From: Halopseudomonas xinjiangensis
Lineage (GTDB): Bacteria; Pseudomonadota; Gammaproteobacteria; Pseudomonadales; Pseudomonadaceae
DNA: 64,000 nucleotides
Reading direction: 5' to 3'
Assembly: GCA_011050525.1 (NCBI GenBank)
Contig: DRFO01000030.1
Coordinates: forward strand, 124,001-188,000
Shown here: piece after piece, positions 11,241 through 32,748 of the stretch
How the letters are laid out: each line of letters opens with the position of its first letter
Position numbering within the stretch: the stretch's first letter is position 1
Notes under the pieces: generated by a model
What the model was told of the DNA's origin: nothing
The model's input: only the letters and a program-made list of their open reading frames with translations
Databases searched by the model: none
Translations under genes and position numbers: made by a program

Positions 11241-11369
11241 CTGCCAAATCCGTCACACCTGCGACCAGCTCTTGTGATCTAAAATTTGCGCCGCTGGACA
11301 ACCATTCGGAAAAAAGCGCAAAGTTGGGAAACAAAGACCCATGCTCAAGGGACTTGGCGGAGATACGTA

Positions 11370-13125: not shown

Positions 13126-13231
13126 GGGTAGTCCCCATTTGCCAGCGCAGCGCCGGCTGCGGATAATCAAGTGCTGCGTGGCAGTGTTACGCATGTGCGG
13201 GTATCTCACAAGTCGACACAGAGAGAGTGGT

Positions 13232-14116
13232 ATGGAGCAATTCCGCAATATTGGATTGATCGGGCGTCTCGGTAGCGGCCGGGTAGTGGACACGCTCAAA
13301 CGCTTGAAGCGCTTTCTGCTTGATAACGGACACTCGGTGATTCTGGAGGATTCGGTGGCCGACCTGCTGCCGGGCCACCAGTTGCAGGTCTGTTCACGCA
13401 AGATGATGGGCGAGATCTGCGACCTGGTCATCGTGGTCGGTGGTGACGGAAGTTTGCTGGGCGCTGCGAGAGCGCTGTGTCGATACAACGTTCCGGTACT
13501 TGGAGTAAACCGGGGCGGGCTGGGCTTTCTGACCGACATATCGCCGGATGAGCTGGAGAGTAGAGTTGGGGAAGTCCTGGCAGGGCGTTACATGGTGGAA
13601 AACCGCTTTCTGCTGGATGCCTATGTGCGCCGGAATGACGAACAGCTCGGCACCAGCGAAGCCCTGAACGATGTGGTCCTGCATCCGGGTAAATCGGCCA
13701 GGATGATTGAATTCGAGCTGTATATCGATGGACAGTTCGTTTACAGCCAGAAGTCGGATGGCCTGATCGTGGCTACGCCTACAGGCTCTACGGCCTACGC
13801 ATTGTCTGCCGGCGGGCCGATCATGCATCCCAAGCTGGACGCTGTGGTGCTGGTGCCGATGTTTCCGCACACGCTGTCCAGCCGCCCGATCGTGGTTGAC
13901 GGAAACAGCGAACTGAAAATCATCGTGTCGTCCCAGAGCGGTATCTATCCGCAGATCAGCTGTGATGGCCAGGTTCATATCGCCTGCGCACCGGGTGACA
14001 CCATCACCATTCGCAAAAAACCACAGAAGCTGCGGCTGCTGCATCCGCTGGATCACAACTTCTATGAGATCTGCCGCAACAAGCTCGGCTGGTCCAGCCG
14101 ATTGACGGAGCAATGA
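13232..14116 (+). CDS. nadK: NAD kinase (NadK)
   Basis: 294 residues. Phosphorylates NAD to NADP, the only route to NADP in the cell. Visible motifs: VVGGDGSLLGAAR (GGDG at 70-73), NRGGLGFLTDI, the NDVVLH element, and DGLIVATPTGSTAYALSAGGP. ATG 13232 follows GAGAGAGTGG; the longer frame from 12980 runs through the divergent DUF1853 gene and is rejected. The stop overlaps the next start (ATGA), making a two-gene or longer operon with the phosphatase and rhomboid genes. Confidence 0.97.
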   Translation: MEQFRNIGLIGRLGSGRVVDTLKRLKRFLLDNGHSVILEDSVADLLPGHQLQVCSRKMMGEICDLVIVVGGDGSLLGAARALCRYNVPVLGVNRGGLGFLTDISPDELESRVGEVLAGRYMVENRFLLDAYVRRNDEQLGTSEALNDVVLHPGKSARMIEFELYIDGQFVYSQKSDGLIVATPTGSTAYALSAGGPIMHPKLDAVVLVPMFPHTLSSRPIVVDGNSELKIIVSSQSGIYPQISCDGQVHIACAPGDTITIRKKPQKLRLLHPLDHNFYEICRNKLGWSSRLTEQ

Positions 14117-15087
14117 GGATGCAGGGGCAGGAAGGGCACACAGGCTACGACGTTATTGGTGATATTCACGGCTGCGCCCACACTCTGACCCTGTTACTCG
14201 ACCGCCTCGGCTATCGCCAGCAGAACGGAGTCTGGCGGCACCCTTCACGGCAGGCATTGTTCCTGGGGGATATCATTGATCGTGGTCCACGTATTCGCGA
14301 GGCTCTGCATCTCGTGCGGGACATGGTCGAGGCGGGCACCGCACGCTGCATCATGGGTAATCACGAGTTCAATGCGCTGGGCTGGTCCACGCCTGCACCT
14401 GCAGGGAGCGGACGGGCTTTTGTTCGTGAGCACACGGAACGCAACCTGCGTCAGGTAAACGATACGCTCGACCAGTTCGCGGCCTGGCCGGATGAGTGGA
14501 GCTCTTTTCTGGACTGGTTTTATACCCTGCCCCTGTTCCTTGATATGGGCGATTTTCGAATGGTACACGCCTGCTGGGATCACGGATTGATCGACGCGTT
14601 TCTGGCCCAATACCCCGACGGCTGTCTGGATATTGATTTTCTTCACGCGTCGGTAGAGCCGGGCAGCTTCGCCGAACAGGTGCAGGACCGATTGCTGCGC
14701 GGAACCGGCATGCGATTGCCCCATGGTCTGTCTATGACCAGCAAGGATGGGCTGCGCAGATCGTTTTTTCGCACCAAGTTCTGGGAAGAAGATCCTCAGA
14801 CGTACGGCGACATCCAGTTCCAGCCAGACCCGCTGCCTGACCACATCGCTGCGCGCCCACTGACCGACAGGCAAAAAGCCGAGTTGCTGATCTACGGTCT
14901 TGATGAGCCGATTCTGTTCGTTGGGCATTACTGGCAGCAGGGCAAGCCCAGCCCGATCCGACCCAATCTCGCCTGTTTGGATTACAGCGCCGTCAAGTTC
15001 GGCAAGATGGTTGCTTACAGATGGAGTGGTGAGCACCGTCTTGATCGAAATAATTTCGTCTGGGTCGAAGTGCCCAGGCTGGACTGA
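14113..15087 (+). CDS. Calcineurin-like metallophosphoesterase
   Basis: 324-residue phosphoesterase of the PPP/bis(5'-nucleosyl)tetraphosphatase type. Metal-ligand motifs GDIHGCAHT (about 17-25), LGDIIDRGP (about 52-60) and MGNHEFN (about 79-85) are intact; a late GHYW may provide the final histidine. Substrate cannot be read from sequence; nucleotide or protein phosphates are possible. ATG 14113 overlaps the nadK stop, with GGAG upstream; a second ATG two codons later is possible. Same gene order (nadK-phosphatase-rhomboid) occurs in P. aeruginosa as I recall. Confidence 0.88.
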   Translation: MRMQGQEGHTGYDVIGDIHGCAHTLTLLLDRLGYRQQNGVWRHPSRQALFLGDIIDRGPRIREALHLVRDMVEAGTARCIMGNHEFNALGWSTPAPAGSGRAFVREHTERNLRQVNDTLDQFAAWPDEWSSFLDWFYTLPLFLDMGDFRMVHACWDHGLIDAFLAQYPDGCLDIDFLHASVEPGSFAEQVQDRLLRGTGMRLPHGLSMTSKDGLRRSFFRTKFWEEDPQTYGDIQFQPDPLPDHIAARPLTDRQKAELLIYGLDEPILFVGHYWQQGKPSPIRPNLACLDYSAVKFGKMVAYRWSGEHRLDRNNFVWVEVPRLD

Positions 15088-17102: not shown

Positions 17103-19754
17103 ATGCGTACCGAACAACCGAAGACCATCTATCTCAAGGATTATCAGCAGCCCGACTACTGGATAGATGAAACGCACCTCACTTTCGAGCTGTTCGATGA
17201 CCATGCGCTGGTTCATAGCCGCCTGCTGGTTCGGGTGAATGAAGACAAGGCGCATTCCTCAGCGCCGCCCCTGGTGCTGGATGGTCAGCAGCTCGAGTTG
17301 CTATCGATAGCCGTTGATGACCAGGCTCTGAACCAGGACGACTATCAAGTGGATGCGGATACGCTGACCCTGCACCGTCCGACTCAGCAGTTCGATCTGT
17401 CCATCACTACCCGCATCAAGCCAAGGCAGAACACTGCCCTGGAAGGTCTGTATCAGTCCGGTGAGATGTTCTGTACGCAGTGCGAGGCGGAGGGGTTTCG
17501 CAAGATTACCTATTACCTGGATCGTCCGGATGTGATGAGCCGCTTCACTACTACGGTGATTGCCGCGCGGGGCGAATACCCGGTTCTGCTGTCCAATGGC
17601 AATCCCATCGCCTCAGGTGATCACGAAGGTGGCCGCCATTGGGTTACCTGGGAAGACCCGTTCCCCAAGCCCGCCTACCTGTTTGCCCTGGTAGCGGGCG
17701 ATCTTTGCGTAATCAGCGACAGCTTCATCACAATGAGTGGTCGCGAAATTGACCTGCGCATTTACGTAGAACCGGAAAATCGCGAGCAATGTGATCACGC
17801 GATGGACAGTCTCAAGCGCTCGATGCGCTGGGATGAAGAGGTCTACGGGCGTGAGTACGACCTTGATATCTTCATGATCGTGGCAGTGAACGACTTCAAC
17901 ATGGGCGCCATGGAAAACAAGGGCCTCAATATATTCAACTCCAGTTGTGTGCTGGCTCACCCCGATACTGCGACGGACCTGGCCTTCCAGCGAGTGGAAG
18001 CGGTGGTTGCACACGAGTATTTCCATAACTGGTCAGGTAACCGGGTGACCTGTCGTGACTGGTTCCAGCTGTCGCTGAAGGAAGGCTTCACGGTTTTTCG
18101 CGATTCCGAATTTTCGGCGGACATGAACTCAGCGACCGTCAAACGCATTGAAGATGTGACGTTCCTTCGGTCCAACCAGTTCGCCGAAGATGCTGGCCCG
18201 ATGGCTCACCCGGTGCGGCCCGATTCGTTTATTGAAATTTCCAACTTCTATACGCTGACGGTGTATGAAAAGGGCTCTGAAGTCGTGCGTATGCTACATA
18301 CCATGCTGGGAGCTGAAGGCTTTCGCAAGGGCACTGACCTATATTTCGAGCGGCATGACGGCCAGGCCGTCACCTGCGATGACTTCATCGCCGCCCTGGA
18401 AGAGGCCAATGGAGCGGATCTTGCGCAGTTCAAACGTTGGTACAGTCAGGGCGGCACGCCGCGACTGGTTATAAAAAGCGAGTACGATGCGTCGGCCAGC
18501 ACCTTCAGCCTGCATTTCAGTCAAAGCTGCCCGCCGACCCCAGGTCAGCCAGAAAAACTGCCTATGGTGATTCCGGTCAGAATGGCTCTGCTGGACGCAA
18601 CGGGGCGCGAGCTGCCCTTGAAGGTGGCGGGGGAGGCGGAGCCCAGAGGCACTGAAACGGTGATCGTGCTGACTGAGGCCGAGCAGGTATTCACCTTTGA
18701 AGGTATTGCGCAGGAGCCTTTGCCTTCTCTGCTGCGTGGTTTTTCCGCACCGGTCAAGATGAGCTATCCCTATTCCCGGGATGACCGAGTGTTTTTGGCC
18801 AAGCATGATCCCGACGGCTTCAATCGCTGGGAAGCAGCCCAGAGCCTGGCGGTCGAAGTGTTGCAGGGGCTGGTGGCTATCCATCAGGCAGGCAGGCCGC
18901 TTAGGCTGGATTTGCGCTTGCTGGATGTTCATCGCACCGCACTCGCCGATCCGGATCTGGATCCGGCGATGGTTGCGGAAATCTTGCGCCTACCCTCGGA
19001 ATCCTACCTGGTGGAGTTGGCCGACATCGCCGACGTGGACAGTATTCATCGGGTGCGCGAATGGGTGCGCCTGGAACTGGCCAATGCCATGAGCGATGAG
19101 ATGTGGGCTGTGTTCCGGCGCCTTGACGTGCCGTCGGCCTATAGCCCTGACGCTGACGCCATGGCCAGGCGCAGCTTGAAGAACACGCTGCTGGGTTATG
19201 TGATGGAAACCGGTTCGGCTGAAGCGCTTTCGGCCTGCGTCAGGCAATTCGTCGAAGCCAATAACATGACGGATCGCCAAGCAGCGCTGGTAGCGCTGGT
19301 CAATTCGTCCCATGAAGAACAGAAAAAAGCGGCACTGCATGATTTTGCCGAGCGCTGGGCTGCTTACCCGCTGGTCATGGATCAGTGGTTCAGTATTCAG
19401 GCTGGCTGTTCATTGGCTGGCGGACTGGAGCGGGTACAGGCACTGCAGGAACATGCGGCTTTCACATTGCGCAATCCAAACAAGATCCGCGCGCTATATG
19501 GTGCCTTCGCCAATCAGAATCTGATCAATTTCCATCGTAAGGACGGGGCAGGGTACCGCTTTTTGGCCGATCAGATAATGATCCTCAACGGACTGAACCC
19601 GCAGATTGCCTCGCGCTTGCTCACGCCGCTGACGCGGTGGCGCAAATACGATGAGCAGCGCCAGGTTTTGATGAAAGTCGAACTGGGACGCATCATGCAG
19701 CATCCGGACCTGTCTCCCGATGTTTATGAAGTGGTCAGCAAATCTCTGGCTTAA
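17103..19754 (+). CDS. pepN: Aminopeptidase N (PepN), M1 family
   Basis: 883 residues, normal for the proteobacterial cytosolic enzyme. Removes N-terminal residues from peptides during protein turnover. The exopeptidase motif MGAMENKG lies near residue 266 and the zinc site HEYFHNWSGNR near 303, with the third ligand glutamate in LKEGFTVFRD about 20 residues later. Start ATG 17103 follows AGGA. It closes the block that began with nadK; a hairpin follows the stop. Confidence 0.97.
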   Translation: MRTEQPKTIYLKDYQQPDYWIDETHLTFELFDDHALVHSRLLVRVNEDKAHSSAPPLVLDGQQLELLSIAVDDQALNQDDYQVDADTLTLHRPTQQFDLSITTRIKPRQNTALEGLYQSGEMFCTQCEAEGFRKITYYLDRPDVMSRFTTTVIAARGEYPVLLSNGNPIASGDHEGGRHWVTWEDPFPKPAYLFALVAGDLCVISDSFITMSGREIDLRIYVEPENREQCDHAMDSLKRSMRWDEEVYGREYDLDIFMIVAVNDFNMGAMENKGLNIFNSSCVLAHPDTATDLAFQRVEAVVAHEYFHNWSGNRVTCRDWFQLSLKEGFTVFRDSEFSADMNSATVKRIEDVTFLRSNQFAEDAGPMAHPVRPDSFIEISNFYTLTVYEKGSEVVRMLHTMLGAEGFRKGTDLYFERHDGQAVTCDDFIAALEEANGADLAQFKRWYSQGGTPRLVIKSEYDASASTFSLHFSQSCPPTPGQPEKLPMVIPVRMALLDATGRELPLKVAGEAEPRGTETVIVLTEAEQVFTFEGIAQEPLPSLLRGFSAPVKMSYPYSRDDRVFLAKHDPDGFNRWEAAQSLAVEVLQGLVAIHQAGRPLRLDLRLLDVHRTALADPDLDPAMVAEILRLPSESYLVELADIADVDSIHRVREWVRLELANAMSDEMWAVFRRLDVPSAYSPDADAMARRSLKNTLLGYVMETGSAEALSACVRQFVEANNMTDRQAALVALVNSSHEEQKKAALHDFAERWAAYPLVMDQWFSIQAGCSLAGGLERVQALQEHAAFTLRNPNKIRALYGAFANQNLINFHRKDGAGYRFLADQIMILNGLNPQIASRLLTPLTRWRKYDEQRQVLMKVELGRIMQHPDLSPDVYEVVSKSLA

Positions 19755-19886: not shown

Positions 19887-21017
19887 ATGCGTGAGCCCAT
19901 CGAGCGGCGCGCTTCATTCTTTGATCGGGCGAGCCTTGCCAGCCAGCCTTGCAAAGGTCACAAGCACACTTTCATTCGTCCGTTTGTCAACGCATTCGGA
20001 TTGTCTTTGGTATTGGCTTCATTTACCGGGACAGCGGCCTTTGCCCAGTCTACGGATTACACCACTCTGCCCGCGGTCATGTCTCCCCAGGCCAGCACGG
20101 CTTTGCTGATCGACGCCGCGCAAGCCGGTGATCGTCTGGTTGCGGTTGGGTCTCGAGGCCACATCGTTTACTCCGATGATCAGGGTCTGAGCTGGAGTCA
20201 GGCGGCGGTACCTACTCGCCAATTATTAAGTGCCGTGTATTTTGTCGATGATCAGCACGGCTGGGCAGTGGGCCACGATTCGCTGATCCTGCATACCAAG
20301 GACGGCGGCCTGAACTGGGTTATCCAGTATCGCGATCCAGCTCTTGAAGAGGAGAGGGATGAAGAGGGTCTGGGTCTTCTTGAACGTCCCCTTATGGACG
20401 TATGGTTTCGTGATGCCAAGACCGGTTTCGCTGTTGGCGCTTACGGTCTGATGCTGCGCACCGATGATGGCGGCGCCACTTGGGAAGACCGCAGCAGTGA
20501 CATCGACAATCCGGACGGCTTCCATTACAACGCGCTGACCACGGTCCGCGATGCCGGTCTGTTCCTGGTGGGGGAGATGGGAACAATGTATCGGTCGCCG
20601 GACTTTGGTGAGACCTGGGAAACCTTGCAGGAGCTGCCCTACGATGGCTCCTGGTTCGGTACTTCCGGGACCCTGCAGCCAAATGTCGTCCTGGCTTGGG
20701 GCCTGCGTGGAAACGTGTTTCGTTCGGATAACTTCGGGGATAGCTGGGAACAGGTCGAGCTGATGACCCCCCGAAACGGCCCGCTTGAGTCAACCCTTTC
20801 CGGCGGCGGCCTTTCCAAAGATGGCAAGCTGACCGTGGTCGGGGTAGGCGGTGTGGTTGCTACCAGCGAAGATGCCGGCCGTACGTTCTCTGTTGCGATT
20901 CGTCCGGACCGCGTGGCGTTGGCCTCGGCGGAGGTTCTGGATGGCGGTCAGCTTCTGCTTCTGGGCCAGAACGGCGCAGTCAAGGCTACCGCAAATGGTC
21001 TGCCACTAAATCAATAA
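19887..21017 (+). CDS. Exported YCF48/BNR beta-propeller protein, copy 1
   Basis: 376 residues. A long basic N-region, hydrophobic core (about 38-50) and AFA cleavage site near residue 53 indicate Sec export. The mature protein has repeated propeller blades with Asp-box-like turns: YSDDQGLSW, HTKDGGLNW, RTDDGGATW, RSPDFGETW, RSDNFGDSW and TSEDAGRTF. This is the YCF48 / photosystem II stability factor HCF136-like family, often encoded beside RND exporters. ATG 19887 follows AAAGGGGG. The gene is 24 bases upstream of the RND gene and closely resembles the protein at 23622. A periplasmic partner or assembly factor for the exporter is inference. Confidence 0.88.
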   Translation: MREPIERRASFFDRASLASQPCKGHKHTFIRPFVNAFGLSLVLASFTGTAAFAQSTDYTTLPAVMSPQASTALLIDAAQAGDRLVAVGSRGHIVYSDDQGLSWSQAAVPTRQLLSAVYFVDDQHGWAVGHDSLILHTKDGGLNWVIQYRDPALEEERDEEGLGLLERPLMDVWFRDAKTGFAVGAYGLMLRTDDGGATWEDRSSDIDNPDGFHYNALTTVRDAGLFLVGEMGTMYRSPDFGETWETLQELPYDGSWFGTSGTLQPNVVLAWGLRGNVFRSDNFGDSWEQVELMTPRNGPLESTLSGGGLSKDGKLTVVGVGGVVATSEDAGRTFSVAIRPDRVALASAEVLDGGQLLLLGQNGAVKATANGLPLNQ

Positions 21018-21041
21018 TAATTACACGCCAGGAGAATCTGG

Positions 21042-23426
21042 ATGTCACAAGACAATTTCGATAATGAAGACGCTACCTTCATGGAGCGGTTGGTTTTCAA
21101 CAACCGCTTGACGGTGGTGGTACTGTTTCTTCTCATCACGGTATTTCTTGGTTATCACGCCCTTCAAATCAGGCCTGATACCAGTTTCGAGAAGATGATT
21201 CCGCTCGAACACCCCTACATTGTCAACATGATTGAGCACCAGGATGACCTTGCAAGTCTTGGCAACTCGATCCGCATTGCGGTAGCGATTGAAGATGGCG
21301 ACATCTTTTCCACTGAGTATATGGAAACGCTGAAGCGCATCAACGACGAGGTGTTCTTCCTTCCGGGTGTGAACCGGTCGGGGCTGCGGTCGCTATGGAC
21401 ACCCAACGTGCGCTGGACCGAGGTAACGGAGTACGGCTTCGATGGCGGGCCGGTAGCCAACCGTCCGGCCTATCTCACCGAGGACGATCTGGAAGAGCTG
21501 CGTATCAATGTGCTCAAGTCCGGGGAAATTGGCCGTCTGGTAGCAAACAACTTCAAGTCGACCATCATTGAAGTGCCGCTTCAGGAATACTATCCCAACC
21601 CTGAAAACCAGGGTGAGCTGATCCGCCTGGATTATGGACAATTTTCCCGTTTGCTCGAGGAAAAGATCCGTGATGAGTTCGAAGGCGAGAATCCCAACAT
21701 CAGCGTGCATATTGTCGGGTTCGCCAAGAAAGTCGGTGATCTGATCGAAGGCCTGGGGGCGGTTGTAGCCTTTTTCGGTGTTGCGTTCATCATTACGCTT
21801 TTGCTGCTGCTGTGGTTTACAAGCTGTGTACGCTCCACCTTTTCCGTGCTGGCGACCACCGTTATTGCCGTTATCTGGCAGCTTGGCTTGATCCGGCTGG
21901 TCGGGTTCGGTCTGGATCCTTACTCGATGCTGGTTCCGTTCCTGATCTTTGCCATCGGTATTTCCCATGGTGTGCAGAAGATCAACGGTATTGCGTTGCA
22001 GTCCAGCGATGCGGATACAGCACTACTGGCGGCGCGGCGGACCTTCCGTCAGCTGTTTTTGCCGGGCATGATCGCGATTCTGGCTGATGCGGTTGGTTTT
22101 ATTACCCTGCTGGTGCTGGATATCGGCGTTATTCATGAGCTGGCAATTGGTGCTTCGATCGGTGTGGGTGTGATTGTTTTTACCAACCTGATCATGTTGC
22201 CGGTGACTATTTCCTACCTGGGCATCAGCAAGAAGGCGATAGCGCGTAGCAAGGCAGATGCGGTGCGTGAGCATCCGTTCTGGAGGACCATGGCGTATGT
22301 GGCGCACCCCAAGGTGGCGCCTCTGATCGTGGTCATTGCCGTCGTCACAGGCACAGGTGCATTTTTCTACCAGAAGAACAACCTGGAAATAGGTGACCTT
22401 GACCCGGGTGCTCCTGAGCTGCGTCCTGACTCGCGCTATAACCAGGACAATGATTTCATCATCGACAACTATTCCACGAGCTCCGATGTTCTGGTGGTCA
22501 TGGTCGAAACGCCTCCCGAAATGTGCTCGTCGTATGAAACATTGGAGGCGATCGATCAGCTTCAATGGCGCATGAATAACTTGCCTGGGGTTCAGTCAGC
22601 GGTGTCGCTGGTGACAGTAGCCAAGCAGGTGATCATGGGCAACAACGAGGGCAATCTGAAGTGGCAGGCCCTGTCGCGCAATCAGGACAACCTGAACAAC
22701 GCGATCAGCCGTGCCCCGGAGGGGATGTTCAACAGCTCTTGCTCGCTGGCTCCGGTACTGGTTTACCTCAATGACCACAAGGCCGACACACTGACCCGCG
22801 CTACTGAAGCCGTGGAAGAGTTCGCCGAGGAATACAATACTGAAAACCTCCAGTTCAAACTGGCTGCGGGGAATGCCGGTATCGAGGCAGCTACCAACGA
22901 GGTTATCGCCAAGTCGGAGCTTACCATTCTGGTACTGGTGTACGTCTGGGTAGGTATCATGTGCTTCTTTACCTTCCGCTCGCTCCCGGCGACCATCTGC
23001 GTTGTGCTGCCGCTGGTTCTGACATCGGTATTCGGTAATGCATTGATGGCTTTCCTGGGCATCGGCATGAAGGTGGCGACGCTTCCGGTGATCGCTCTGG
23101 GTGTAGGGGTCGGTGTGGACTATGGTATTTACATCTATAGTCGTCTGGAGACCTTCCTTCGCCAGGGGCTGCCTTTGCAGGAAGCCTATTACGAGACCCT
23201 ACGCTCGACAGGTAAAGCGGTATTGTTTACTGGTCTGTGCCTGGCTATCGGCGTAGCGACGTGGATTTTCTCCGCCATCAAGTTCCAGGCGGACATGGGT
23301 CTGATGCTGACGTTCATGTTCATCGTGAACATGTTCGGCGCCATGCTGTTGCTTCCAGCACTGGCAAGGTTCCTGATTGATCCAGCCAAAATTCGCGCCA
23401 AAACGGCCTCCAAACTGCAACACTGA
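21042..23426 (+). CDS. RND superfamily exporter, HAE3/MMPL type, copy 1
   Basis: 794 residues with the RND pattern: one N-terminal helix (about 25-45), a large periplasmic loop (RPDTSFEKMIPLEHP and onward), five helices (about 230-400), a further helix near 435, a second periplasmic loop (DPGAPELRPDSRYN) and a final helix cluster (about 625-785) with GVGVDYGIYIYSRLE. Such HAE3/MMPL proteins move lipids or other hydrophobic compounds using proton motive force. SD AGGAGAAT precedes ATG 21042. There is no periplasmic adaptor or outer-membrane channel gene nearby; the BNR protein is the only partner. A terminator follows. Confidence 0.9.
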   Translation: MSQDNFDNEDATFMERLVFNNRLTVVVLFLLITVFLGYHALQIRPDTSFEKMIPLEHPYIVNMIEHQDDLASLGNSIRIAVAIEDGDIFSTEYMETLKRINDEVFFLPGVNRSGLRSLWTPNVRWTEVTEYGFDGGPVANRPAYLTEDDLEELRINVLKSGEIGRLVANNFKSTIIEVPLQEYYPNPENQGELIRLDYGQFSRLLEEKIRDEFEGENPNISVHIVGFAKKVGDLIEGLGAVVAFFGVAFIITLLLLLWFTSCVRSTFSVLATTVIAVIWQLGLIRLVGFGLDPYSMLVPFLIFAIGISHGVQKINGIALQSSDADTALLAARRTFRQLFLPGMIAILADAVGFITLLVLDIGVIHELAIGASIGVGVIVFTNLIMLPVTISYLGISKKAIARSKADAVREHPFWRTMAYVAHPKVAPLIVVIAVVTGTGAFFYQKNNLEIGDLDPGAPELRPDSRYNQDNDFIIDNYSTSSDVLVVMVETPPEMCSSYETLEAIDQLQWRMNNLPGVQSAVSLVTVAKQVIMGNNEGNLKWQALSRNQDNLNNAISRAPEGMFNSSCSLAPVLVYLNDHKADTLTRATEAVEEFAEEYNTENLQFKLAAGNAGIEAATNEVIAKSELTILVLVYVWVGIMCFFTFRSLPATICVVLPLVLTSVFGNALMAFLGIGMKVATLPVIALGVGVGVDYGIYIYSRLETFLRQGLPLQEAYYETLRSTGKAVLFTGLCLAIGVATWIFSAIKFQADMGLMLTFMFIVNMFGAMLLLPALARFLIDPAKIRAKTASKLQH

Positions 23427-23433
23427 TAGTCAA

Positions 23434-23467
23434 GCAAGCCCCGCCCCGCGCGGGGCTTGCTGTTTTT
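23434..23467 (+). terminator. Rho-independent terminator after first propeller/RND unit
   Basis: GCAAGCCCCGC pairs with GCGGGGCTTGC around a short loop, followed by TGTTTTT. It separates the two copies of the unit, so each is probably transcribed independently. Confidence 0.85.
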
Positions 23468-23540
23468 CTGCCCCGTTCTTCCTGCTGTTTTTCTTTCCCT
23501 TTATCATTTTCCTGATTAACAAAAGATAACCCCTGTCCGG

Positions 23541-23570
23541 TTGGCAGCCCTTGTTAAAGGCCGTTAGTAT
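23541..23570 (+). promoter_or_regulatory. Candidate sigma70-like promoter of second propeller/RND unit
   Basis: TTGGCA (23541-23546), 18-base spacer, TAGTAT (23565-23570), about 50 bases before the start at 23622 and after a strong terminator. This is a reasonable match by eye only; other spacings are possible in this AT-richer stretch. Confidence 0.4.
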
Positions 23571-23621
23571 TAAAAATCATGCCATTTGGCAGGTCTTAAT
23601 AAGAACAAGGGGGAATGGTCT

Positions 23622-24758
23622 ATGCGTATGCCTATCGATTGGCGTGCCCCATCCGTAGAAAAGGCGAGCAATATGTACCAGCCTGGCAGTGGTTCCACAC
23701 TATCTTTCCCGCGAAAGCTTATCTCGGTGATTGGACTGTCCGCAGCGATGGTCTGCGTTCCGGCTGCTCAGGTTTTCGCACAGGATGCCACGGAGTATGA
23801 GGATACTCGCTCAGCCGTCATGTCTCCTTTGGCGAGTCTGGCTTTGTTGATTGACGTCGTGAAAGCCGGTGATCGCCTTGTAGCTGTCGGCTCGCGGGGT
23901 CATATCGTTTACTCGGACGACCAGGGCGCATCGTGGCAGCAGGCCGATGTCCCCACTCGGCAGATGCTCACAGCCGTCAATTTCATCAATGCCAACGAAG
24001 GATGGGCGGTTGGTCATGATTCTCTGATTTTGCATACCACCGATGGGGGCGAGAGCTGGACCATTCAGTACCGTGATCCCGCGCTTCAAGAGGAAATCGA
24101 CGAGCAAGGGCCTGGCCTGCTTGAGCGCCCGTTGATGGATGTCTGGTTCCGCGACGCCAACACCGGTTTCGCCGTGGGTGCGTACGGCTTGATGCTGCGT
24201 ACTGAAGATGGCGGTGAAACCTGGAATGAAGTTGATGATGTCGATAACCCTAACGGCTTTCATTACAACGCGATCGCTCCGATTGAAGGGGCTGGGCTTT
24301 TCCTGGTAGGCGAAATGGGCACTGTCTATCGTTCGCCTGATTACGGCGACACCTGGGAAACCCTTACTGACGTGCCCTATGACGGTTCATGGTTTGGGGT
24401 GACTGGTACGGGCGATACTGGGGTCGTTCTAGCCTGGGGCCTGCGTGGCAACATGTTTCGCTCCGAGGATTTTGGCGACACCTGGCGACAGATTGAGTTA
24501 ACGGCGCCGGATGGCGATCCGCTGGAATCGACGCTGTTTGGTGGTGGGGCTTCCGCAGATGGCCAGGAAATCGTAGTCGTTGGCGTAGGCGGAATCGTCG
24601 CTGTGAGTGAGGATCGCGGTCGTTCATTCTCAGTGGCGGTGCGTCCGGATCGGGCAGCTCTGGCATCGGCGACGGTACTGGAAAATGGTCAATTGCTTCT
24701 GGTTGGTCAGCGTGGAGTGGTGAAAGCGGCCGAAAACGGCCTGCCTGCAAACCGCTAA
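23622..24758 (+). CDS. Exported YCF48/BNR beta-propeller protein, copy 2
   Basis: 378 residues from ATG 23622, which has AAGGGGGA seven bases upstream (the frame also opens at 23586 without a site). Signal peptide with cleavage near VFA-QD, about residue 53. The mature chain is nearly colinear with the copy at 19887: GDRLVAVGSRGHIVYSDDQG, GWAVGHDSLILHT, LLERPLMDVWFRDA and FHYNA are shared, and the same Asp-box turns recur (HTTDGGESW, RTEDGGETW, RSPDYGDTW, RSEDFGDTW, VSEDRGRSF). Differences cluster in the signal peptide and loops, which points to an old duplication rather than a recent one. Confidence 0.88.
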   Translation: MRMPIDWRAPSVEKASNMYQPGSGSTLSFPRKLISVIGLSAAMVCVPAAQVFAQDATEYEDTRSAVMSPLASLALLIDVVKAGDRLVAVGSRGHIVYSDDQGASWQQADVPTRQMLTAVNFINANEGWAVGHDSLILHTTDGGESWTIQYRDPALQEEIDEQGPGLLERPLMDVWFRDANTGFAVGAYGLMLRTEDGGETWNEVDDVDNPNGFHYNAIAPIEGAGLFLVGEMGTVYRSPDYGDTWETLTDVPYDGSWFGVTGTGDTGVVLAWGLRGNMFRSEDFGDTWRQIELTAPDGDPLESTLFGGGASADGQEIVVVGVGGIVAVSEDRGRSFSVAVRPDRAALASATVLENGQLLLVGQRGVVKAAENGLPANR

Positions 24759-24782
24759 TAGTCTTACACCAGGAGAATCTGG

Positions 24783-27128
24783 ATGTCGAAACATCATCAG
24801 GAAGTCGCTCCGCTAGTGGAGCGTCTGATATTCAACAATCGCATTGTTGTGCTCTTTGTCTTCGCGTTACTGACGGTTTTCTTTGGTTATCAGGCGGCGC
24901 AGGTCCGACCTGATACCAGTTTCGAGAAGATGATCCCCCTCGAGCATCCTTATATTGTCAATATGCTCGAACACCAGAACGATATGGACAATCTAGGTAA
25001 CTCGATTCGGATCGCCGTCGCTATCGAGGACGGTGATATCTTTTCAGCCGAGTACATGGAAACCCTCAAACGCATCAATGATGAGGTATTTTTCCTGCCG
25101 GGCGTGGACCGCTCGAGCCTGCGCTCGTTATGGACGCCCAACGTCCGCTGGACGGAGGTCACGGAATACGGCTTCGACGGTGGCCCGGTGGCGAATCGTC
25201 CGGCTTATGTCACCGAGGATGACCTTGAGGAGCTGCGTGAGAATATCCTCAAGTCTGGTGAGATCGGCCGCCTGGTAGCGAACAACTTCAAATCGACAAT
25301 TATCGAAGTACCCCTGCAGGAATCCTATCCCAATCCGGAAAACCAGAGCGAGCAGATCAACCTCGACTATGGTGAATTCTCCCGGCAACTGGAGGAGAAG
25401 ATACGCAACGAGTTTGAGAACGAGAACATCAATATTCATATCGTTGGGTTTGCCAAGAAGGTCGGTGACCTGATCGAAGGCATCATCAAGGTAATCATGT
25501 TTTTCGGGGCAGCCCTGTTGATTACCTTCGTGTTGCTGTTGATGTTTACCCGCTGCCTGAAAAGTTCGATAACCACGCTTCTTTGTTCGGTTATTGCGGT
25601 AGTTTGGCAGTTGGGCTTGCTGCGCACGCTCGGGTTTGGGTTGGATCCCTATTCGATCCTGGTCCCGTTTCTGGTGTTCGCCATCGGTATTTCACACGGT
25701 GTGCAGATCATCAACGGCATGGCAATCGAGTATGCAGGTGCTGAAGACGCCAACACAGCCGCCCGTCGCGCCTTTCGAGCGCTGTATATTCCGGGCATCG
25801 TCGCGCTGGTTTCAGACGCCGTCGGTTTCGTGACCTTGCTGTTGATCGAAATCGAGGTGATACGGGAGTTGGGTATCGCGGCATCGGTCGGCGTGGGTGT
25901 CATCATTCTCACCAACCTGATTCTGCTGCCGATCCTGATGTCCTATATTGGCATTGGGCGCCGTGCCATTGAGCGTAATCGCGATCTGGCATCGCGTCCC
26001 CAGAAGCTGTGGCTGGGCGTAGCCAAATTTGCCCATCCGTCAGTGGCGCCTATTTCGGTGGGACTGGCTATTCTGGCGTTTGCCTTCGGTATCTATTACG
26101 GCAAGAACGTCGAGATTGGGGATCTGGACCCGGGCGCACCGGAATTGCGGGCTGATTCCCGGTACAACCTGGATAACGACTTCATCATCCGCAATTACTC
26201 GACCAGTTCCGACGTGCTGGTGGTAATGGTAAGCACTCCGCCTGAAATGTGTTCGAGTTACGAAACCATGGAGGCGATAGACCAACTGCAGTGGCGCATG
26301 AACAACGTGCCAGGTGTGCAGTCGGCGGTGTCGATGGTGAGCGTGGCCAAGCAGGTTCTCATGGGGAACAACGAAGGCAATCTCAAATGGCAGACATTGT
26401 CGCGCAACCAGGACAACCTGAATAACGCCATCAGCCGCGCGCCACAGGGGATGTTCAACGCCCAGTGCTCCCTGGCTCCGGTCATGCTGTTTCTCAACGA
26501 CCACAAGGCTGACACGCTGCAGCGCGCGACCGCTGAGGTGGAGGCCTTTGCCGAGGAGTACAACACTGAAAATCTGGAGTTCAAGCTGGCGGCGGGTAAC
26601 GCCGGTATCGAAGCGGCTACCAACGACGTGATCGAAGCGTCGCAGACCAAGATGCTGCTGACTGTATATGCGGTGGTGATCTTTATGTGTCTGATTACCT
26701 TCCGCTCGATCCGGGCCGTGCTGTGTATCATCATCCCGCTAGCGCTGACGTCGGTGCTGGCGAATGCGTTGATGGCCTTCCTCGGTATTGGTGTGAAGGT
26801 GGCGACGTTGCCGGTGATTGCTTTGGGTGTTGGTATCGGGGTCGATTACGGTATCTACATCTACAGCCGTCTGGAAAGCTATCTGCGTCAGGGATTGCCG
26901 CTTCAGGAAGCCTATTACGAAACGCTGAAAACCACGGGCAAGGCGGTTACCTTTACCGGCTTCACCCTGGCTATCGGTGTGGCTACCTGGATTTTCTCAG
27001 CGATCAAGTTCCAGGCTGACATGGGAATCCTGCTGACCTTCATGTTCCTGTGGAACATGTTCGGGGCGCTTTGGTTGCTACCTGCCTTGGCGCGCTTCCT
27101 GATTCGCCCGGAAAAACTGCGCGACTGA
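24783..27128 (+). CDS. RND superfamily exporter, HAE3/MMPL type, copy 2
   Basis: 781 residues and same topology as the protein at 21042. Long identical stretches include RPDTSFEKMIPLEHPYIVNM, YNTENL and FKLAAGNAGIEAATN, together with GVDYGIYIYSRLE; the membrane helices are more divergent. The ribosome-site context CCAGGAGAATCTGGATGTC is the same in both copies, so the intergenic spacer was duplicated too. It may handle a related but distinct hydrophobic substrate, or work with the first copy; neither can be decided from sequence. A bidirectional terminator follows. Confidence 0.9.
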   Translation: MSKHHQEVAPLVERLIFNNRIVVLFVFALLTVFFGYQAAQVRPDTSFEKMIPLEHPYIVNMLEHQNDMDNLGNSIRIAVAIEDGDIFSAEYMETLKRINDEVFFLPGVDRSSLRSLWTPNVRWTEVTEYGFDGGPVANRPAYVTEDDLEELRENILKSGEIGRLVANNFKSTIIEVPLQESYPNPENQSEQINLDYGEFSRQLEEKIRNEFENENINIHIVGFAKKVGDLIEGIIKVIMFFGAALLITFVLLLMFTRCLKSSITTLLCSVIAVVWQLGLLRTLGFGLDPYSILVPFLVFAIGISHGVQIINGMAIEYAGAEDANTAARRAFRALYIPGIVALVSDAVGFVTLLLIEIEVIRELGIAASVGVGVIILTNLILLPILMSYIGIGRRAIERNRDLASRPQKLWLGVAKFAHPSVAPISVGLAILAFAFGIYYGKNVEIGDLDPGAPELRADSRYNLDNDFIIRNYSTSSDVLVVMVSTPPEMCSSYETMEAIDQLQWRMNNVPGVQSAVSMVSVAKQVLMGNNEGNLKWQTLSRNQDNLNNAISRAPQGMFNAQCSLAPVMLFLNDHKADTLQRATAEVEAFAEEYNTENLEFKLAAGNAGIEAATNDVIEASQTKMLLTVYAVVIFMCLITFRSIRAVLCIIIPLALTSVLANALMAFLGIGVKVATLPVIALGVGIGVDYGIYIYSRLESYLRQGLPLQEAYYETLKTTGKAVTFTGFTLAIGVATWIFSAIKFQADMGILLTFMFLWNMFGALWLLPALARFLIRPEKLRD

Positions 27129-27143: not shown

Positions 27144-27172
27144 AAAAAGGCGCTCCGTGGAGCGCCTTTTTT
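27144..27172. terminator. Bidirectional terminator between RND copy 2 and SDR gene
   Basis: AAAAAGGCGCTCC, two-base loop, GGAGCGCCTTTTTT: eight strong GC-rich pairs extended by A/T pairs, with a T run on either strand. It serves the convergent genes ending at 27128 and 27185. Confidence 0.92.
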
Positions 27173-28311: not shown

Positions 28312-29985
28312 TCATACGTCGGGGTACAGGCTCGCCAGTTGCTCAGGCGGCGCTTCACTGGCTTTCTTGCGGGTTTGTATAGCTACCCGCACTGCTCGCC
28401 AGAGCGGTTTGCCGCGCCATGGGGTATCGCAGTGCCCAAACAGACAGGCATTCAGATTGTCTAGTGCTTCCGATAACTCGGGATGGCGCGGCGCAAGCCC
28501 GACCAAACCGTCCGGATCCTGTTGTCGAGCCCAGGCCTCCAACGCTCTTCTTGCCTCCCCAGGGTGGTTGCCGCGGCAGGCTGCCTGCAGATCGCCCAAC
28601 GGGTTGCCCTGAATCTCGTCATCGAGATTTTCCTGCTCCTCGGGAAGGACCCTATCGGTGAGGGCGCGCCTGGCTCGGTGCAGCAACAGCAACGAGAAAC
28701 CAAGCGCTAGGCTGAGCAGCACACTTGATACTTGCCACGGCCAGACTGCAGGGTACTGTTGGGGTTCGACGCGCCCACTAATAACTGTTTCAGGCAGGCT
28801 GCTGGTAAAATTCTGATCACTGCTCACATTGAGCGTAACGGCATCCAGGCGGGCGGTTTGCAGGCTATCCAGCTGAGTATCCCACCAGTGCACTTCTACG
28901 GCGGGCAGCTGGTAGGAGCCTTCTGACTGGGCGACGAGCGCCACACTGTCCTGACGTAAACCCCGGACGCCACTATCCCTGGTTTTGTTTTCCAGCTTGG
29001 GCTGGTCTGCATAGAGCCTTAGGCGTTGTGCGGTCTGATCCGGGAGACTGTGCAGCACGGGCAACTGACTGGCGCTCAATCCTTCCGCCTCAAGGGTCAG
29101 AGTGCGGGTTAACGGTTCTCCGCTCAGCAGGTCGATTCCTGGGTCAGGTTGCCATTGTTGGCTCAGGTTTACCTGGCTGGCGGGAATCCATGGGGCTCCG
29201 GATGGGTAGTTCTCCGGGATAGGCTGTACCTCTAGAATAATGCTGGGCGAGCGTACCTGAACCACTTTGCCGGTTCGGGCAGAGAAGCGTGCCGAGGGGT
29301 CCCGTGCCTGAAGAATCGTCGCGCTGAACAGTTGGGAGGGGATTTCAAGATCGCCGCTTTGCTGGGCAAATACCGCATACCTGACCTCTATCACACCGTG
29401 CCGCACGCCATTGATGAGTCGTTCGTAATGCTGTGGCGAACCCAGGCTTTCGACTCGCGCATTGGGGATTTCCAGCCCGCTGAGCGTGGAGTCATCGTAT
29501 AGCGAAACCGAGTGGTAGACCCTCAGGGTCAACAATACCTGAGCCTGTACGTAGGGCGTCTCCGTGTCCACCTCGCTATCAATGAATACGGGCCCCATTT
29601 GCGCAACGGTGTCCTGTGCCGCCTGGGATGCCGAAAGAACCTCAAGGCTGATGGGCTTGCTCTGCATTTCCTCCAGGCGCACCGGGGGTATCACCACAAA
29701 GCCGGTTCGCTTCGGCGACAGGGTAATTATCCAGCGGGTTACCGGTTGCGCACGTCCGTCCAGTTTGCTGATCAGGCTGAGCTGCCTGCTACCCTGGATT
29801 TCAAAATGCTCTTCCAGAGGCGTGAAATCGGGCCGAGCAAAACGGCTGGCCGCTGCACTTTCCAATGTAAATTCCAGCGTTTCGCCTTCGACCAGCCGAG
29901 TGCGGTCGACGCTGGCTTCAAGGTCCGCATGGGCCAGGGTCGGGCAGAGCAAAAGAACCAGGTAAAGGAGAAAAGGTCTGGTCAT
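28312..29985 (-). CDS. batD: BatD-like protein (oxygen tolerance / DUF7939-type)
   Basis: 557 residues: signal peptide (cleavage about AHA-DL, residue 20), a large periplasmic region of Ig-like beta domains (VDRTRLVEGETLEFTLE at the start; further domains to about 390), one transmembrane helix (about 420-437), and a cytoplasmic alpha-helical tail. This is the BatD arrangement. It is the last gene of the moxR-bat operon; the ATG overlaps the batB stop by four bases. Bat proteins are thought to act with MoxR ATPases in envelope or metalloprotein maturation; the exact role is not established. Confidence 0.88.
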   Translation of the reverse strand: MTRPFLLYLVLLLCPTLAHADLEASVDRTRLVEGETLEFTLESAAASRFARPDFTPLEEHFEIQGSRQLSLISKLDGRAQPVTRWIITLSPKRTGFVVIPPVRLEEMQSKPISLEVLSASQAAQDTVAQMGPVFIDSEVDTETPYVQAQVLLTLRVYHSVSLYDDSTLSGLEIPNARVESLGSPQHYERLINGVRHGVIEVRYAVFAQQSGDLEIPSQLFSATILQARDPSARFSARTGKVVQVRSPSIILEVQPIPENYPSGAPWIPASQVNLSQQWQPDPGIDLLSGEPLTRTLTLEAEGLSASQLPVLHSLPDQTAQRLRLYADQPKLENKTRDSGVRGLRQDSVALVAQSEGSYQLPAVEVHWWDTQLDSLQTARLDAVTLNVSSDQNFTSSLPETVISGRVEPQQYPAVWPWQVSSVLLSLALGFSLLLLHRARRALTDRVLPEEQENLDDEIQGNPLGDLQAACRGNHPGEARRALEAWARQQDPDGLVGLAPRHPELSEALDNLNACLFGHCDTPWRGKPLWRAVRVAIQTRKKASEAPPEQLASLYPDV

Positions 29986-31769
29986 TCCTGCGCACCATCT
30001 TGTTGACGTAGATGCTGATAGAGAAACTTGCGCCGCAGCAGCTCGGCCGGATCATCGGGTATGTCTTCAAGCCACTGCTGCATGGACAGCTGCTGCTCCC
30101 GCTGCTCGTTTGGCGTCAATTCATCCAGTGCTATGCCGTCACGCTCGGGCTCCTGATCCATGGCGCCTTGCTGTTCGGTCTGGCTGTCCATTGCGGTATC
30201 CCCGCTGGCGGCAGAGGGAGGCGAATTGCTCCCATTGGCTGGCCCAGTGTCGGCGTTTTGTTCTTCACTTTCCTGCATGGGCTGATCTTCGCCGTCCGTC
30301 TGCGTCTGCGTCTGCGTCTCGGGTTGGTCGTCGGGAGCGGTTGCATCATTCTCTGCACTGGCCGCAGGCTCCGCTGATTCGGCCTGCTGATTTTTCTTCT
30401 GTTCTTCCAGCCACTCTTCTACGCGCCGCCGATTATGTCGTGCGCCCTGGTGATTAGGCGCACGCGTCAGCGCCTGTTCAAAGGCTTCCAGGGATTCATC
30501 GTAACGTCCAATCATTGCCAGGGAGGTACCGTAGTTGAAGTGATGGTCCGGATTGTCCGGGTCCTGGCTTATCAGCTTCGCGTAAGCCTCGCTGGCAGCT
30601 TCATGGTTGCCTGACTGATACCAGGCCCAGCCACGCCATGCCGGATCTTCGAAAAGCGCGGCAGCTTCCGCCGGCTTGTCTTGCCGCAAAAGCTCAGCTG
30701 CTTGCTGGTCCGGCCGCTGCCATAGATCGTCCCAGGCGGCTTCGGCAGGTGCAGGCAGCAACGCGAGGCAGCAAAGCAAACCCAGCCAGCCACGCCGGGC
30801 TCCCAGGGCAGCCAGAGGCAACAACAGCAGGACCAGCCAGTGGCCTTTGTCCTGAAACGAAAGCTGTCGTTCGGCGGCGACCGATATCGATGTTCGATTG
30901 TTCTGAAGCAGGTGATGCAGATCGCTGTCATCCAGTGTCAGCCCATGGTATCCGGACCCATTTCGACGAGCCACACCGGCCAGGGCCTGGCTGTCGAGTC
31001 GGGCCAGCAGGATCCGGCCCTCGGCGTCGCGCATGAATTCACCCTCGGCGAGCGCAACGGGTGATCCGCTGGCCGTGCCTATTCCCAGGATATTCAGTTG
31101 GGGACCGAGCAGGCGTGCATGCTCTTCCAGCGCCTCGAGATCAGCCCCTTCAGCGCCGCTGGTCATCAGCAGAATCTGGGCGCTGCGCTTGGGTAACTGG
31201 CTGATCATGTGGCTGGCCAGGGTCAGCGCCTGAGCCACATCGCGGCCTGGGTTGGGCATGATGGCTGGCTCCAGTGCACCCAGCAGATTAGCGAGCGTAG
31301 TGTGGTCCGTGCTCAATGGCGTCACACGGTGAGCACTTCCGGCATAGGCGACCAACGCGATGTGATAGTCGTCGGGGAGCGCCAGGATGTCACGGACCTT
31401 GCGCTTGGCACGTTCGAGCCGGTTCGGGCTGATATCCTCGGCGAGCATGTTGTGCGAGACGTCCAGCGCAACCACGATGGCGGATTGCTCGATCCGAGCG
31501 GTATCCATGTCAGCCTCCCATGCCGGCCCGGCGAGAGCCAGCGCTGCCAGCGACCAGCAGCAGCCCAGCAATGCGTAGCGATAGAGGCCGGCGCCGTGCT
31601 CATTACGTTGTAACAGCCAGTGGCTCATCCTTACTGGCAGTAGCGCTTCCCAGCCCGAGCGACGATGCATTCGCTGATAGAGGAACCAGCACAATCCCCA
31701 GGCCGGAATCAGCGCCAGTAACCAGACCGGGCGTAGAAAGGTGAACCCCGGGAAAACGTCAAACCACAT
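29982..31769 (-). CDS. BatB-BatC fusion: VWA domain plus TPR membrane protein
   Basis: 595 residues from ATG 31769 (SD GGGAGG). N-terminal two helices (about 10-30, 63-80), VWA domain (about 95-290), another pair of hydrophobic segments (about 310-345) with an AEAAW-type boundary, TPR repeats (about 395-450, e.g. HFNYGTSLAMIGRYDESLEAFEQAL) and a long Glu/Gln/Thr-rich tail ending near the membrane-distal C-terminus. In many bacteria batB and batC are separate. The VWA metal site reads D103-V-S-H-N107 instead of DxSxS, so the third MIDAS residue of the first motif is changed. The operon neighbours overlap on both sides. Confidence 0.87.
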   Translation of the reverse strand: MWFDVFPGFTFLRPVWLLALIPAWGLCWFLYQRMHRRSGWEALLPVRMSHWLLQRNEHGAGLYRYALLGCCWSLAALALAGPAWEADMDTARIEQSAIVVALDVSHNMLAEDISPNRLERAKRKVRDILALPDDYHIALVAYAGSAHRVTPLSTDHTTLANLLGALEPAIMPNPGRDVAQALTLASHMISQLPKRSAQILLMTSGAEGADLEALEEHARLLGPQLNILGIGTASGSPVALAEGEFMRDAEGRILLARLDSQALAGVARRNGSGYHGLTLDDSDLHHLLQNNRTSISVAAERQLSFQDKGHWLVLLLLPLAALGARRGWLGLLCCLALLPAPAEAAWDDLWQRPDQQAAELLRQDKPAEAAALFEDPAWRGWAWYQSGNHEAASEAYAKLISQDPDNPDHHFNYGTSLAMIGRYDESLEAFEQALTRAPNHQGARHNRRRVEEWLEEQKKNQQAESAEPAASAENDATAPDDQPETQTQTQTDGEDQPMQESEEQNADTGPANGSNSPPSAASGDTAMDSQTEQQGAMDQEPERDGIALDELTPNEQREQQLSMQQWLEDIPDDPAELLRRKFLYQHLRQQDGAQE

Positions 31770-32748
31770 AGCGCCTCCCTTGCCAACTGGCAAAGCCCAT
31801 GGTCATCAGCAGGGCCAGGCCCAACGGGTAAGGATACAGCGGCTCCATCCGGTGCCGTCGGCCGCTTTCGCGCAGCGCTGGCTCCAGTTCGTCCATGCGC
31901 TGATAAATCGCTTCGAAACTATCCGCGTCGCGAGCCCGGAAATACTCGCCCCCGGTAAGCAGGGCGATTTCCTTGAGGGTTCCTTCGTCGAGATCGGTTG
32001 ATGGGTCGACTTCTCTGCTCATCAGGCTGCTGCTATCGGCGGCGGGGAGATTTTCGGCGCCGATCCCGATGCTGAAAATGCGGATGCCGTGGGTAGCGGC
32101 GAGCCGCGCCGCCTGCACGGGGCTGATACGTCCGGCATTGCTTGCTCCGTCAGTCACCAGCAGCAGAACCCGCTGGTCGGCAGGTCGGTCCTCGAGCCGC
32201 TTTATCGCCAGGCCGATAGCGTCGCCGATGGAGGTTGTGCGCCCGGCGAGCCCGGTGAAGGATTCCTCCAGCCAGATCTTCACGCTTTCCCGGTCATGTG
32301 TCAGGGGCGCCTGTATATAGGCCTGCGAGCCGAAGAGTATCAAGCCTAGACGGTCTCCGTGCCGCCGGTCGATAAAGTCGCCAAGCATCTTCTTGACCAG
32401 CGTCAGGCGTTCAACTTCTTCTCCATCCAGGCGCATGTCCCGAAATTCCATGCTGCCGGACAGGTCGATGGCCAACATCATATCCCTGCCGGTAATGCTC
32501 ATCGGTAGCGGTTCGCCTAGCCACTGAGGTCGGGCGGCGGCGGTAATCAACAAGAGCCAGACGAACATGAACAGCCAACTGGTATTGCTGGATTCCGCTA
32601 CCGGTTGTGCCGGGCGGATGCGCTCCAGACGCTGCAGAAAGCTGACCTGCAGCGCAGGCGAGCCGCCGCGCGCTGAGGGCACGAGTCTGCGAACCAGCCA
32701 GGGTAGCGGTAGTAGAAGAAAGGCCGCGAGCCACTGAAACTCAAACAT
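31759..32748 (-). CDS. batA: BatA-like VWA domain membrane protein
   Basis: 329 residues: N-terminal helices (about 5-20 and 58-72), VWA domain (about 88-280) with intact MIDAS AIDLSGS (Asp95, Ser97, Ser99), GRTTSIGDAI threonine motif and VTDGASN aspartate, and a C-terminal helix (about 308-322). This contrasts with the altered site in the adjacent BatB. Start 32748 overlaps the preceding DUF4381 end, and its stop overlaps batB by 11 bases. Probably metal-dependent adhesion to partner proteins in the inner membrane. Confidence 0.92.
   Translation of the reverse strand: MFEFQWLAAFLLLPLPWLVRRLVPSARGGSPALQVSFLQRLERIRPAQPVAESSNTSWLFMFVWLLLITAAARPQWLGEPLPMSITGRDMMLAIDLSGSMEFRDMRLDGEEVERLTLVKKMLGDFIDRRHGDRLGLILFGSQAYIQAPLTHDRESVKIWLEESFTGLAGRTTSIGDAIGLAIKRLEDRPADQRVLLLVTDGASNAGRISPVQAARLAATHGIRIFSIGIGAENLPAADSSSLMSREVDPSTDLDEGTLKEIALLTGGEYFRARDADSFEAIYQRMDELEPALRESGRRHRMEPLYPYPLGLALLMTMGFASWQGRRYVV

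Follow-up and report, generated by a model that had tools for sequence, protein, structure and literature searches.

Periplasmic parts with one history and membrane parts with two in a tandem YCF48-RND locus of Halopseudomonas

How can two neighbouring transporter genes have one history over their periplasmic domains and two histories over their membrane helices? The question is raised by a locus on contig C30 of a Halopseudomonas-like genome (3.97 Mb, 92% complete), in a stretch of 64,000 nucleotides (positions 124,001 to 188,000 of DRFO01000030.1) that is called the window here. Two adjoining units with identical gene order, A (19887-23426) and B (23622-27128), lie on its forward strand. Each consists of a gene for an exported YCF48/Asp-box propeller (yA, yB) followed by a gene for an HAE3/MMPL-type transporter of the resistance-nodulation-division (RND) superfamily (rA, rB).

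Two histories within one transporter

The RND genes were compared in 18 genomes that carry both rA and rB at full length, together with five outgroup RNDs. These are 18 of the 22 rA-bearing genomes; three others have split or cut genes (G001, G024, G031) and one is without rB (G026). In the window rA (21042-23426) has 794 residues and rB (24783-27128) has 781. The two periplasmic domains of rA comprise residues 46-232 (21177-21737) and 447-616 (22380-22889), and both have the same genealogy as their counterparts in rB, which are located at 24912-25466 and 26106-26615 when the coordinates are carried over from rA through the alignment. None of the 357 periplasmic columns shows a fixed difference between A and B, whereas 45 of the 437 other columns do (one of them is a C-terminal gap). 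An initial annotation of this DNA had described diverged membrane helices in true tandem paralogues, and these columns agree with it.

A column counted as diagnostic at a level of 16 or more of the 18 A sequences, 16 or more of the 18 B sequences and four or more of the five outgroup sequences. In the periplasmic part 35 diagnostic columns are shared-derived by A and B and none separates A from B. The membrane part has four shared-derived columns and 52 that separate the copies (24 derived in B, 20 derived in A and eight all different). The Fisher p for this contrast is 4e-21 with columns taken as independent. When the borders are drawn from AlphaFold helices, the shared and separating columns at three cut-offs number 34:0 (periplasmic) and 4:57 (membrane), 17:0 and 2:35, and 48:1 and 10:75. 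An insertion at 559, in the second periplasmic domain, is present in 18/18 A and 18/18 B sequences and in 0/5 of the outgroup. Another at 446, at the membrane border, is found in 18/18 A, 0/18 B and 0/5 outgroup sequences.

The distances behave in the same way. Over 24-residue windows of the alignment, A-B divergence relative to ingroup-outgroup divergence is 0.2-0.7 in periplasmic regions, 0.75-0.9 at the edges and 0.8-2.0 in membrane regions. Mean tree distances in the periplasmic part are 0.356 for A-A, 0.246 for B-B, 0.378 for A-B and 1.617 for A-outgroup; the corresponding membrane values are 0.325, 0.166, 1.882 and 1.204, and the A and B clades of the membrane tree have support of 100/100. 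The propellers follow the periplasmic pattern. Across 12 genomes they have 15 shared-derived columns, no separating columns and no fixed A/B differences, and their mean tree distances are 0.627 (A-A), 0.626 (B-B), 0.777 (A-B) and 1.949 (A-outgroup). With or without gene conversion, a single history is found for the periplasmic halves and two are found for the membrane halves.

Most of the fixed A/B differences fall in transmembrane helices (TM) 2-6 (21) and TM8-12 (15). Could they be the result of drift in redundant copies that are kept for dosage only? Of the explanations weighed here this is the least likely. It would fit the absence of rA from at least 12 genomes, but each copy by itself has strongly conserved membrane columns. 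Divergence in TM2-6 and TM8-12 is 0.09-0.12 within A and 0.03-0.09 within B, with 36 fixed A/B differences in the same helices, and no full-length RND frame in the genus is interrupted.

The candidate relay positions of TM4 and TM10 are conserved. All rows (37 of 37) have Ser-His in TM4 (S308-H309 in rA) and Asp-Tyr in TM10 (D693-Y694). At the TM4 position other MMPL pumps carry Asp-Tyr. Because both motifs are kept in rA and rB, both proteins would presumably be driven pumps. Lys313, four residues past the TM4 His, is kept in 18/18 rA and 5/5 outgroup sequences, and Ile is found there in 18/18 rB sequences. It is possible that the two pumps have two substrates, since the fixed A/B differences are all located outside the periplasmic domains.

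The tandem locus and its gene content in the genus

The propellers yA (19887-21017, 376 residues) and yB (23622-24758, 378 residues) match PSII_BNR in Pfam with E-values of 4.1e-24 and 2.6e-25, and rA and rB match MMPL with 4.8e-25 and 7.1e-35. All four matches in the window are over the cut-off. The signal peptides of the propellers were identified by eye. An upstream TTG at 23586 is also in open frame and may be an alternative start for yB. Both propellers have Asp-box repeats and score below the equivalog cut-off of PRK13684, so they are not photosystem YCF48 proper. HAE3 (TIGR00921) is the best NCBIfam model for rA and rB, with a score below its cut-off. The rA model has two periplasmic domains and long helices, and its best fold matches are MmpL4, MmpL5 and MmpL3, with HpnN (5khn) at rank 32.

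The gap from the y stop to the r ATG is 24 nt in both units (21018-21041 and 24759-24782), and 19 nt spanning the ribosome site and the start are identical. The two adjacent units with one order, spacing and ribosome-site sequence that the initial annotation reported are therefore real. It had also given each unit its own terminator. For unit A a terminator-like site at 23433-23461 (forward strand) was found by a scan of the region that returned 11 such sites against 7.1 in shuffles, and this site is the strongest by G-C pairs. The probable bidirectional terminator of unit B (27144-27172) was seen by eye and is absent from the scan list. Upstream the locus is anchored by a conserved neighbour, the M1 aminopeptidase gene pepN (17103-19754, forward strand), which is outside the machine. 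BatD is located on the minus strand with neighbouring open reading frames (28312-32748), which presumably form an ordinary Bat operon.

The duplication is old. The propellers are 66.9% identical over 375 aligned residues and the RNDs 74.0% over 781, and at identical residues the codon-level alignment finds the same codon in only 39% of cases for the propellers and 50% for the RNDs. By its named close relatives the window belongs with Halopseudomonas; they are species of that genus with 83-90% RND identity over the full length, some of them filed as Pseudomonas or as unclassified metagenome-assembled genomes. Of 148 family genomes 118 contain a relative at E ≤1e-250, and 19 of these belong to the window's genus and 99 to other genera. 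The count of pairs in other genomes showed that adjacent RND pairs are confined to the window's genus (0/99 elsewhere, where 10 genomes have a distant second match). The duplication therefore most likely arose on the line to Halopseudomonas. In the RND tree 13 first copies form one clade and 13 second copies form another.

The initial annotation drew on the retention of both pairs; are both kept as a rule? In 37 genomes of the genus they are not. The full y-r-y-r arrangement is found in 12 (one split over contigs). Eight have lost the first propeller and kept both RNDs, r-y-r (one split). Another 12 have y-r with rB alone, and one has r-y with rB missing (G026, L141, C26:85000-104500, 9877-13520). 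The locus is cut by a contig end in two (G024, G027) and two have no A/B match (G025, G029). G026 is the only genome of the 37 with rA and without rB and is otherwise 99% complete; its propeller after rA groups with the between-RND propeller of G034. Where yA would be, L035 (4930-5225) and L039 (4920-5220) retain about 250 bases before rA after the loss; these include the old start region and no propeller. A pepN tree was made for 33 of the 37 genomes (G024 and G027 lack pepN on the stretch, and from G025 and G029 no stretch was used). On it rA needs four changes, and the r-y-r genomes fall into two groups that stand apart from each other: four genomes form the first (91/94), and the second lies inside a 100/100 clade. 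One propeller can go with two RNDs, as the r-y-r genomes demonstrate, and the RNDs need not co-occur since each is found alone.

These losses bear on two other explanations. In the first, the locus encodes two independent pumps with matched private propellers and two substrates. Each y is located beside its own r with identical translation spacing, and the rate covariation of propellers with the membrane part, given below, would fit a private match. However, there are no fixed A/B differences among the propellers of 12 genomes, the eight r-y-r genomes and the r-y genome run rA without its own propeller, and yA and yB are sister to each other in a clade of eight genomes (98/98). Private propellers are quite unlikely on these grounds. 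In the second, rA and rB form one complex and their periplasmic domains are alike through mutual packing. Such complexes are known; MdtBC contains two RND paralogues. The adjacent genes, similar periplasmic domains and diverged membrane helices would all fit, but of the 37 genomes at least 12 have rB and no rA and one has rA and no rB, and rA requires the four changes on the pepN tree. As a whole this explanation is very improbable. An obligate form of the hetero-oligomeric exporter that had been suggested is unlikely, also in view of the 99% complete genome in which rB is missing, and an optional hetero-complex is possible.

Missing outer-membrane genes and known exporters

The initial annotation had named the exported propeller as the sole local partner of the RNDs. 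A profile search found no match to DUF1302 or DUF1329 at the window locus, in agreement with this. Elsewhere the window genome has seven DUF1302 and 10 DUF1329 matches. It has five YCF48-RND pairs, and the other three (on C17, C35 and C31) adjoin both DUF1302 and DUF1329. The YCF48-RND-DUF1302-DUF1329 cassette on C31 (L034, G000 C31:46000-62000, 1197-13431) stands beside a phenol-hydroxylase-type monooxygenase and an XylR-type activator and is perhaps an aromatic-compound transporter.

The order pepN-DUF1302-DUF1329-YCF48-RND is found in P. benzenivorans, in P. segetis and at three Endozoicomonadaceae loci. Both DUF genes are upstream of the propeller in the relatives L053, L054, L070, L072 and L073 (Pfam check of L053), and at L056, L057, L074 and L075 only DUF1329 was detected in the interval from pepN to the propeller. 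In other relatives, among them betaproteobacterial ones, the order is DUF1302-DUF1329-YCF48-RND and pepN is absent. Both genes are absent from all 24 Halopseudomonas-group loci examined, some of which are short. The outer-membrane parts thus seem to have been lost secondarily, given that several relatives have DUF1302-DUF1329 in the pepN-propeller interval.

Where did the cis DUF1329 gene go? In a quick tree the clade of pepN-linked cis DUF1329 genes (98) holds none of the 10 DUF1329 genes of the window genome, so relocation is less likely than loss. The clade also holds one gene type of genus g4 that is located elsewhere in its genome (L297, L298). In g4 (G039 C191, G055 C15), as in P. benzenivorans, the RND gene is preceded on its own strand by a DUF1329 gene at a distance of about 1.3 kb.

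In place of cis genes, the window genome has unlinked cassettes on two other contigs. Contig C39 has two tandem AraC-regulator/DUF1302/DUF1329 units with divergent regulators (L161, G000 C39:42000-60000, 4830-14712), a second duplication in the same kind of machine that is seen in most genomes of the genus. DUF1329 of the C39 type, counted at an identity of at least 73%, is present in 37/37 genus genomes with one to four copies each. In the family set it is found in 19/19 genomes of the window's genus and 0/129 others, but confinement to the genus is partly an effect of the cut-off, as the nearest g4 match is 61% identical (E 8.5e-196) and falls just below it. Both C39 copies of DUF1302-DUF1329 belong to one Halopseudomonas clade (100) whose adjoining branch has one gene per g4 genome, and the cassette was therefore duplicated on the Halopseudomonas line, in a quick tree with several open forks and only two g4 genomes. 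Contig C2 has a LuxR-type regulator beside DUF1302-DUF1329 (L162, G000 C2:8000-20000, 1229-7195). DUF1302 of the C2 type (identity to the C2 protein of at least 68%, against ≤62% for the remaining full-length matches) is present in 16 of 22 rA-bearing genomes and in none of the other 15, of which two are without any A/B match and one is cut. This is a lead that amounts to two to four independent contrasts, with which significance is unreachable.

Is there a known system of this kind? AmeABCD of Castellaniella defragrans has been described as an HAE3 exporter of apolar monoterpenes with a four-gene arrangement, in which the COG4447/YCF48-type AmeC adjoins the HAE3 RND AmeD; the pair in the window matches this (PMC6394551). 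At loci related to the one in the window, DUF1302 genes (AmeA type) and DUF1329 genes (AmeB type) stand upstream. Unlike AmeABCD, the window locus is without AmeA/AmeB-type genes, its C-D pair is duplicated and its periplasmic and membrane genealogies differ. The system is a reduced relative of the AmeABCD kind, with the adjacent pair present and the cassette absent from the locus.

PP_2018 and PP_2019 of P. putida, which we take to be the pepN-linked YCF48-RND orthologue, are a single pair and not a tandem as in the window. According to one report, they share a Tween-20 phenotype with PP_0765 (DUF1302) and PP_0766 (DUF1329), and PP_2018 and PP_2019 are predicted to bind each other (PMC10866462). 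This is a precedent for a split system, with the genes for the periplasmic protein and the multidrug-efflux-type transporter together and those for DUF1302/DUF1329 at another site (PMC10866462). The 'nanopod' cluster of an anaerobic benzene degrader, for which hydrocarbon movement has been proposed, has a porin-like protein, DUF1329, a YCF48-related protein and an MMPL transporter; unlike the window locus it is complete, single-copy and from another phylum, and its function is predicted (PMC13101534).

Other parallels are more distant. MmpL3 has been reported in a complex with the seven-bladed propeller MSMEG_5308 and TtfA, a functional parallel only, in which an MMPL-fold pump has an accessory propeller (PMC6593404). 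Its host and cargo are different, it is not tandem, and the comparison does not extend to kinship of the propellers. The HpnN hopanoid transporters belong to the HAE3 branch of the RNDs. HpnN is said to function without periplasmic or outer-membrane partners (PMC6394551), unlike the window RNDs with their adjacent propeller genes. The YCF48/HCF136 photosystem II assembly factors are of the same propeller family (solved relatives 2xbg, 5oj5 and 8am5), but the propeller in the window goes with an RND. In narrow searches of the open-licence literature, neither tandem YCF48-RND pairs nor RND pumps with concerted evolution limited to certain domains came up. The component families are known, and the duplicated reduced arrangement is a variant of the AmeABCD kind.

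Probable gene conversion and a proposed common periplasmic route

What kind of machine would give halves with separate histories? We lean towards a reduced and duplicated AmeABCD-type exporter with two engines and a common periplasmic route, whose periplasmic halves were homogenised. The ancestral locus was probably pepN-DUF1302-DUF1329-YCF48-RND, judging by the order in relatives. Toward Halopseudomonas, DUF1302 and DUF1329 would have left the locus and the YCF48-RND remainder would have been duplicated in tandem. The two RNDs would then have become inner-membrane engines with different TM helices, probably for two classes of lipophilic compounds or two energy or substrate couplings. An interchangeable propeller may dock on the periplasmic domains of either RND, with both engines feeding the same route outward. 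On the model of AmeABCD and of PP_2018, PP_2019, PP_0765 and PP_0766 of P. putida, we infer that cargo is handed to DUF1302/DUF1329 proteins whose genes lie away from the locus. The periplasmic domains and propellers would have undergone concerted evolution, for which gene conversion on the genus stem, before the radiation, is the simplest cause, and conversions of the membrane parts would not have been kept. The proposed reason is that the two engines had to remain compatible with one set of periplasmic partners.

The explanations discussed here are not mutually exclusive, and the one that comes closest differs in the conversion step only. It holds that the periplasmic domains and propeller changed in a single-copy ancestor, that the duplication occurred just before the radiation, and that a burst of change in the membrane parts followed. 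The same column pattern would result. The stem from the outgroup to the crown is long in both parts, about 1.1 in the periplasmic and about 0.8 in the membrane part, and the portion common to A and B is nearly all of it in the former and about 9% in the latter. Without conversion the membrane part must have been nearly frozen before the duplication (a trunk of 0.071 versus 1.115 for the periplasmic part), and each copy must then have gained about 0.75 changes per site within a short time. The periplasmic-to-membrane distance ratio is 1.1-1.5 for A-A, B-B, outgroup-outgroup, A-outgroup and B-outgroup comparisons but 0.20 for A-B. Repeated conversion of the propeller and periplasmic segments along the stem probably explains the mosaic, and does so with steady rates. 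Change in a single-copy ancestor is somewhat unlikely by comparison, although the scarce signs of later conversion and a Bayesian information criterion (BIC) that does not favour unlinked lengths are in its favour.

Several further tests bear on conversion. Similarity between A and B of the same genome exceeds that of shuffled pairings in periplasmic domain 2 (p<0.0002 for amino acids, 0.0008 at 4-fold sites); the corresponding values are 0.25 and 0.005 for domain 1, 0.22 and 0.18 for TM2-6, and 0.97 and 0.033 for TM8-12. Unlinking the branch lengths gives a gain of 159.5 log units versus 36-53 in four random splits. Unique shared columns per clade pair number 0.29 within clades versus 0.14 across clades when seven clades are used, and 0.50 versus 0.07 with six. 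Recent conversion in the window genome was rejected, as the longest identical run of rA and rB is 26 nt and no run shared by yA and yB reaches 15 nt. Once the genus had radiated, conversion went on at most as a trace, given the few unique shared columns.

A number of observations weigh against a homogenised exporter with a common route. Same-clade unique shared columns are few, two with seven clades and three with six, and one is in the membrane part. Long identical RND tracts are missing, with a mean of 31 nt in same-genome and 29 nt in cross-genome comparisons. Trees with all A together for the periplasmic part (p 0.237) and with all yA together (p 0.065) are not rejected, and fully unlinked branch lengths are 196 BIC units worse. 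In all four regions the synonymous sites have reached saturation (about 0.43-0.48 difference at 4-fold sites), and for this reason they cannot date conversion. A fused propeller-RND model (mean predicted local distance difference test score 80, predicted template modelling score 0.64) gave no readable interface. Of 38 in-frame pairs 37 were used; L045, which is close to L046, was left out. Rate covariation of the propeller was determined for the 37 loci with pepN and a complete pair. The partial r is 0.31 with the periplasmic and 0.43 with the membrane part; with the membrane part controlled, the periplasmic value is 0.10 and not significant, and the membrane value stays at 0.32. This does not support periplasmic docking and if anything points to the membrane part. 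The copy number of C39-type cassettes does not track whether one or two RNDs are present, and a model in which rA and rB each pair in trans with one of the two C39 cassettes is rejected on this ground. The cis DUF1302 and DUF1329 genes are also missing in non-duplicated relatives such as L055, L063 and L069, and their loss alone does not explain the duplication.

A more specific form of the homogenised exporter can be put forward tentatively. Two engines would use one exhaust, with a common docking face, a shared propeller and unlinked outer-membrane cassettes that are swapped, and conversion would be confined to the periplasmic modules. These modules would be the propeller gene and two separate segments within the RND gene. 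Conversion of this kind would keep compatibility while the membrane engines specialise.

The locus is in effect a natural chimera experiment, with transporter halves of separate histories and strains that have two engines and one propeller. If this reading is true, the periplasmic half would set the compatibility with partners and the membrane half would set the substrate or the coupling, and the locus indicates candidate residues.

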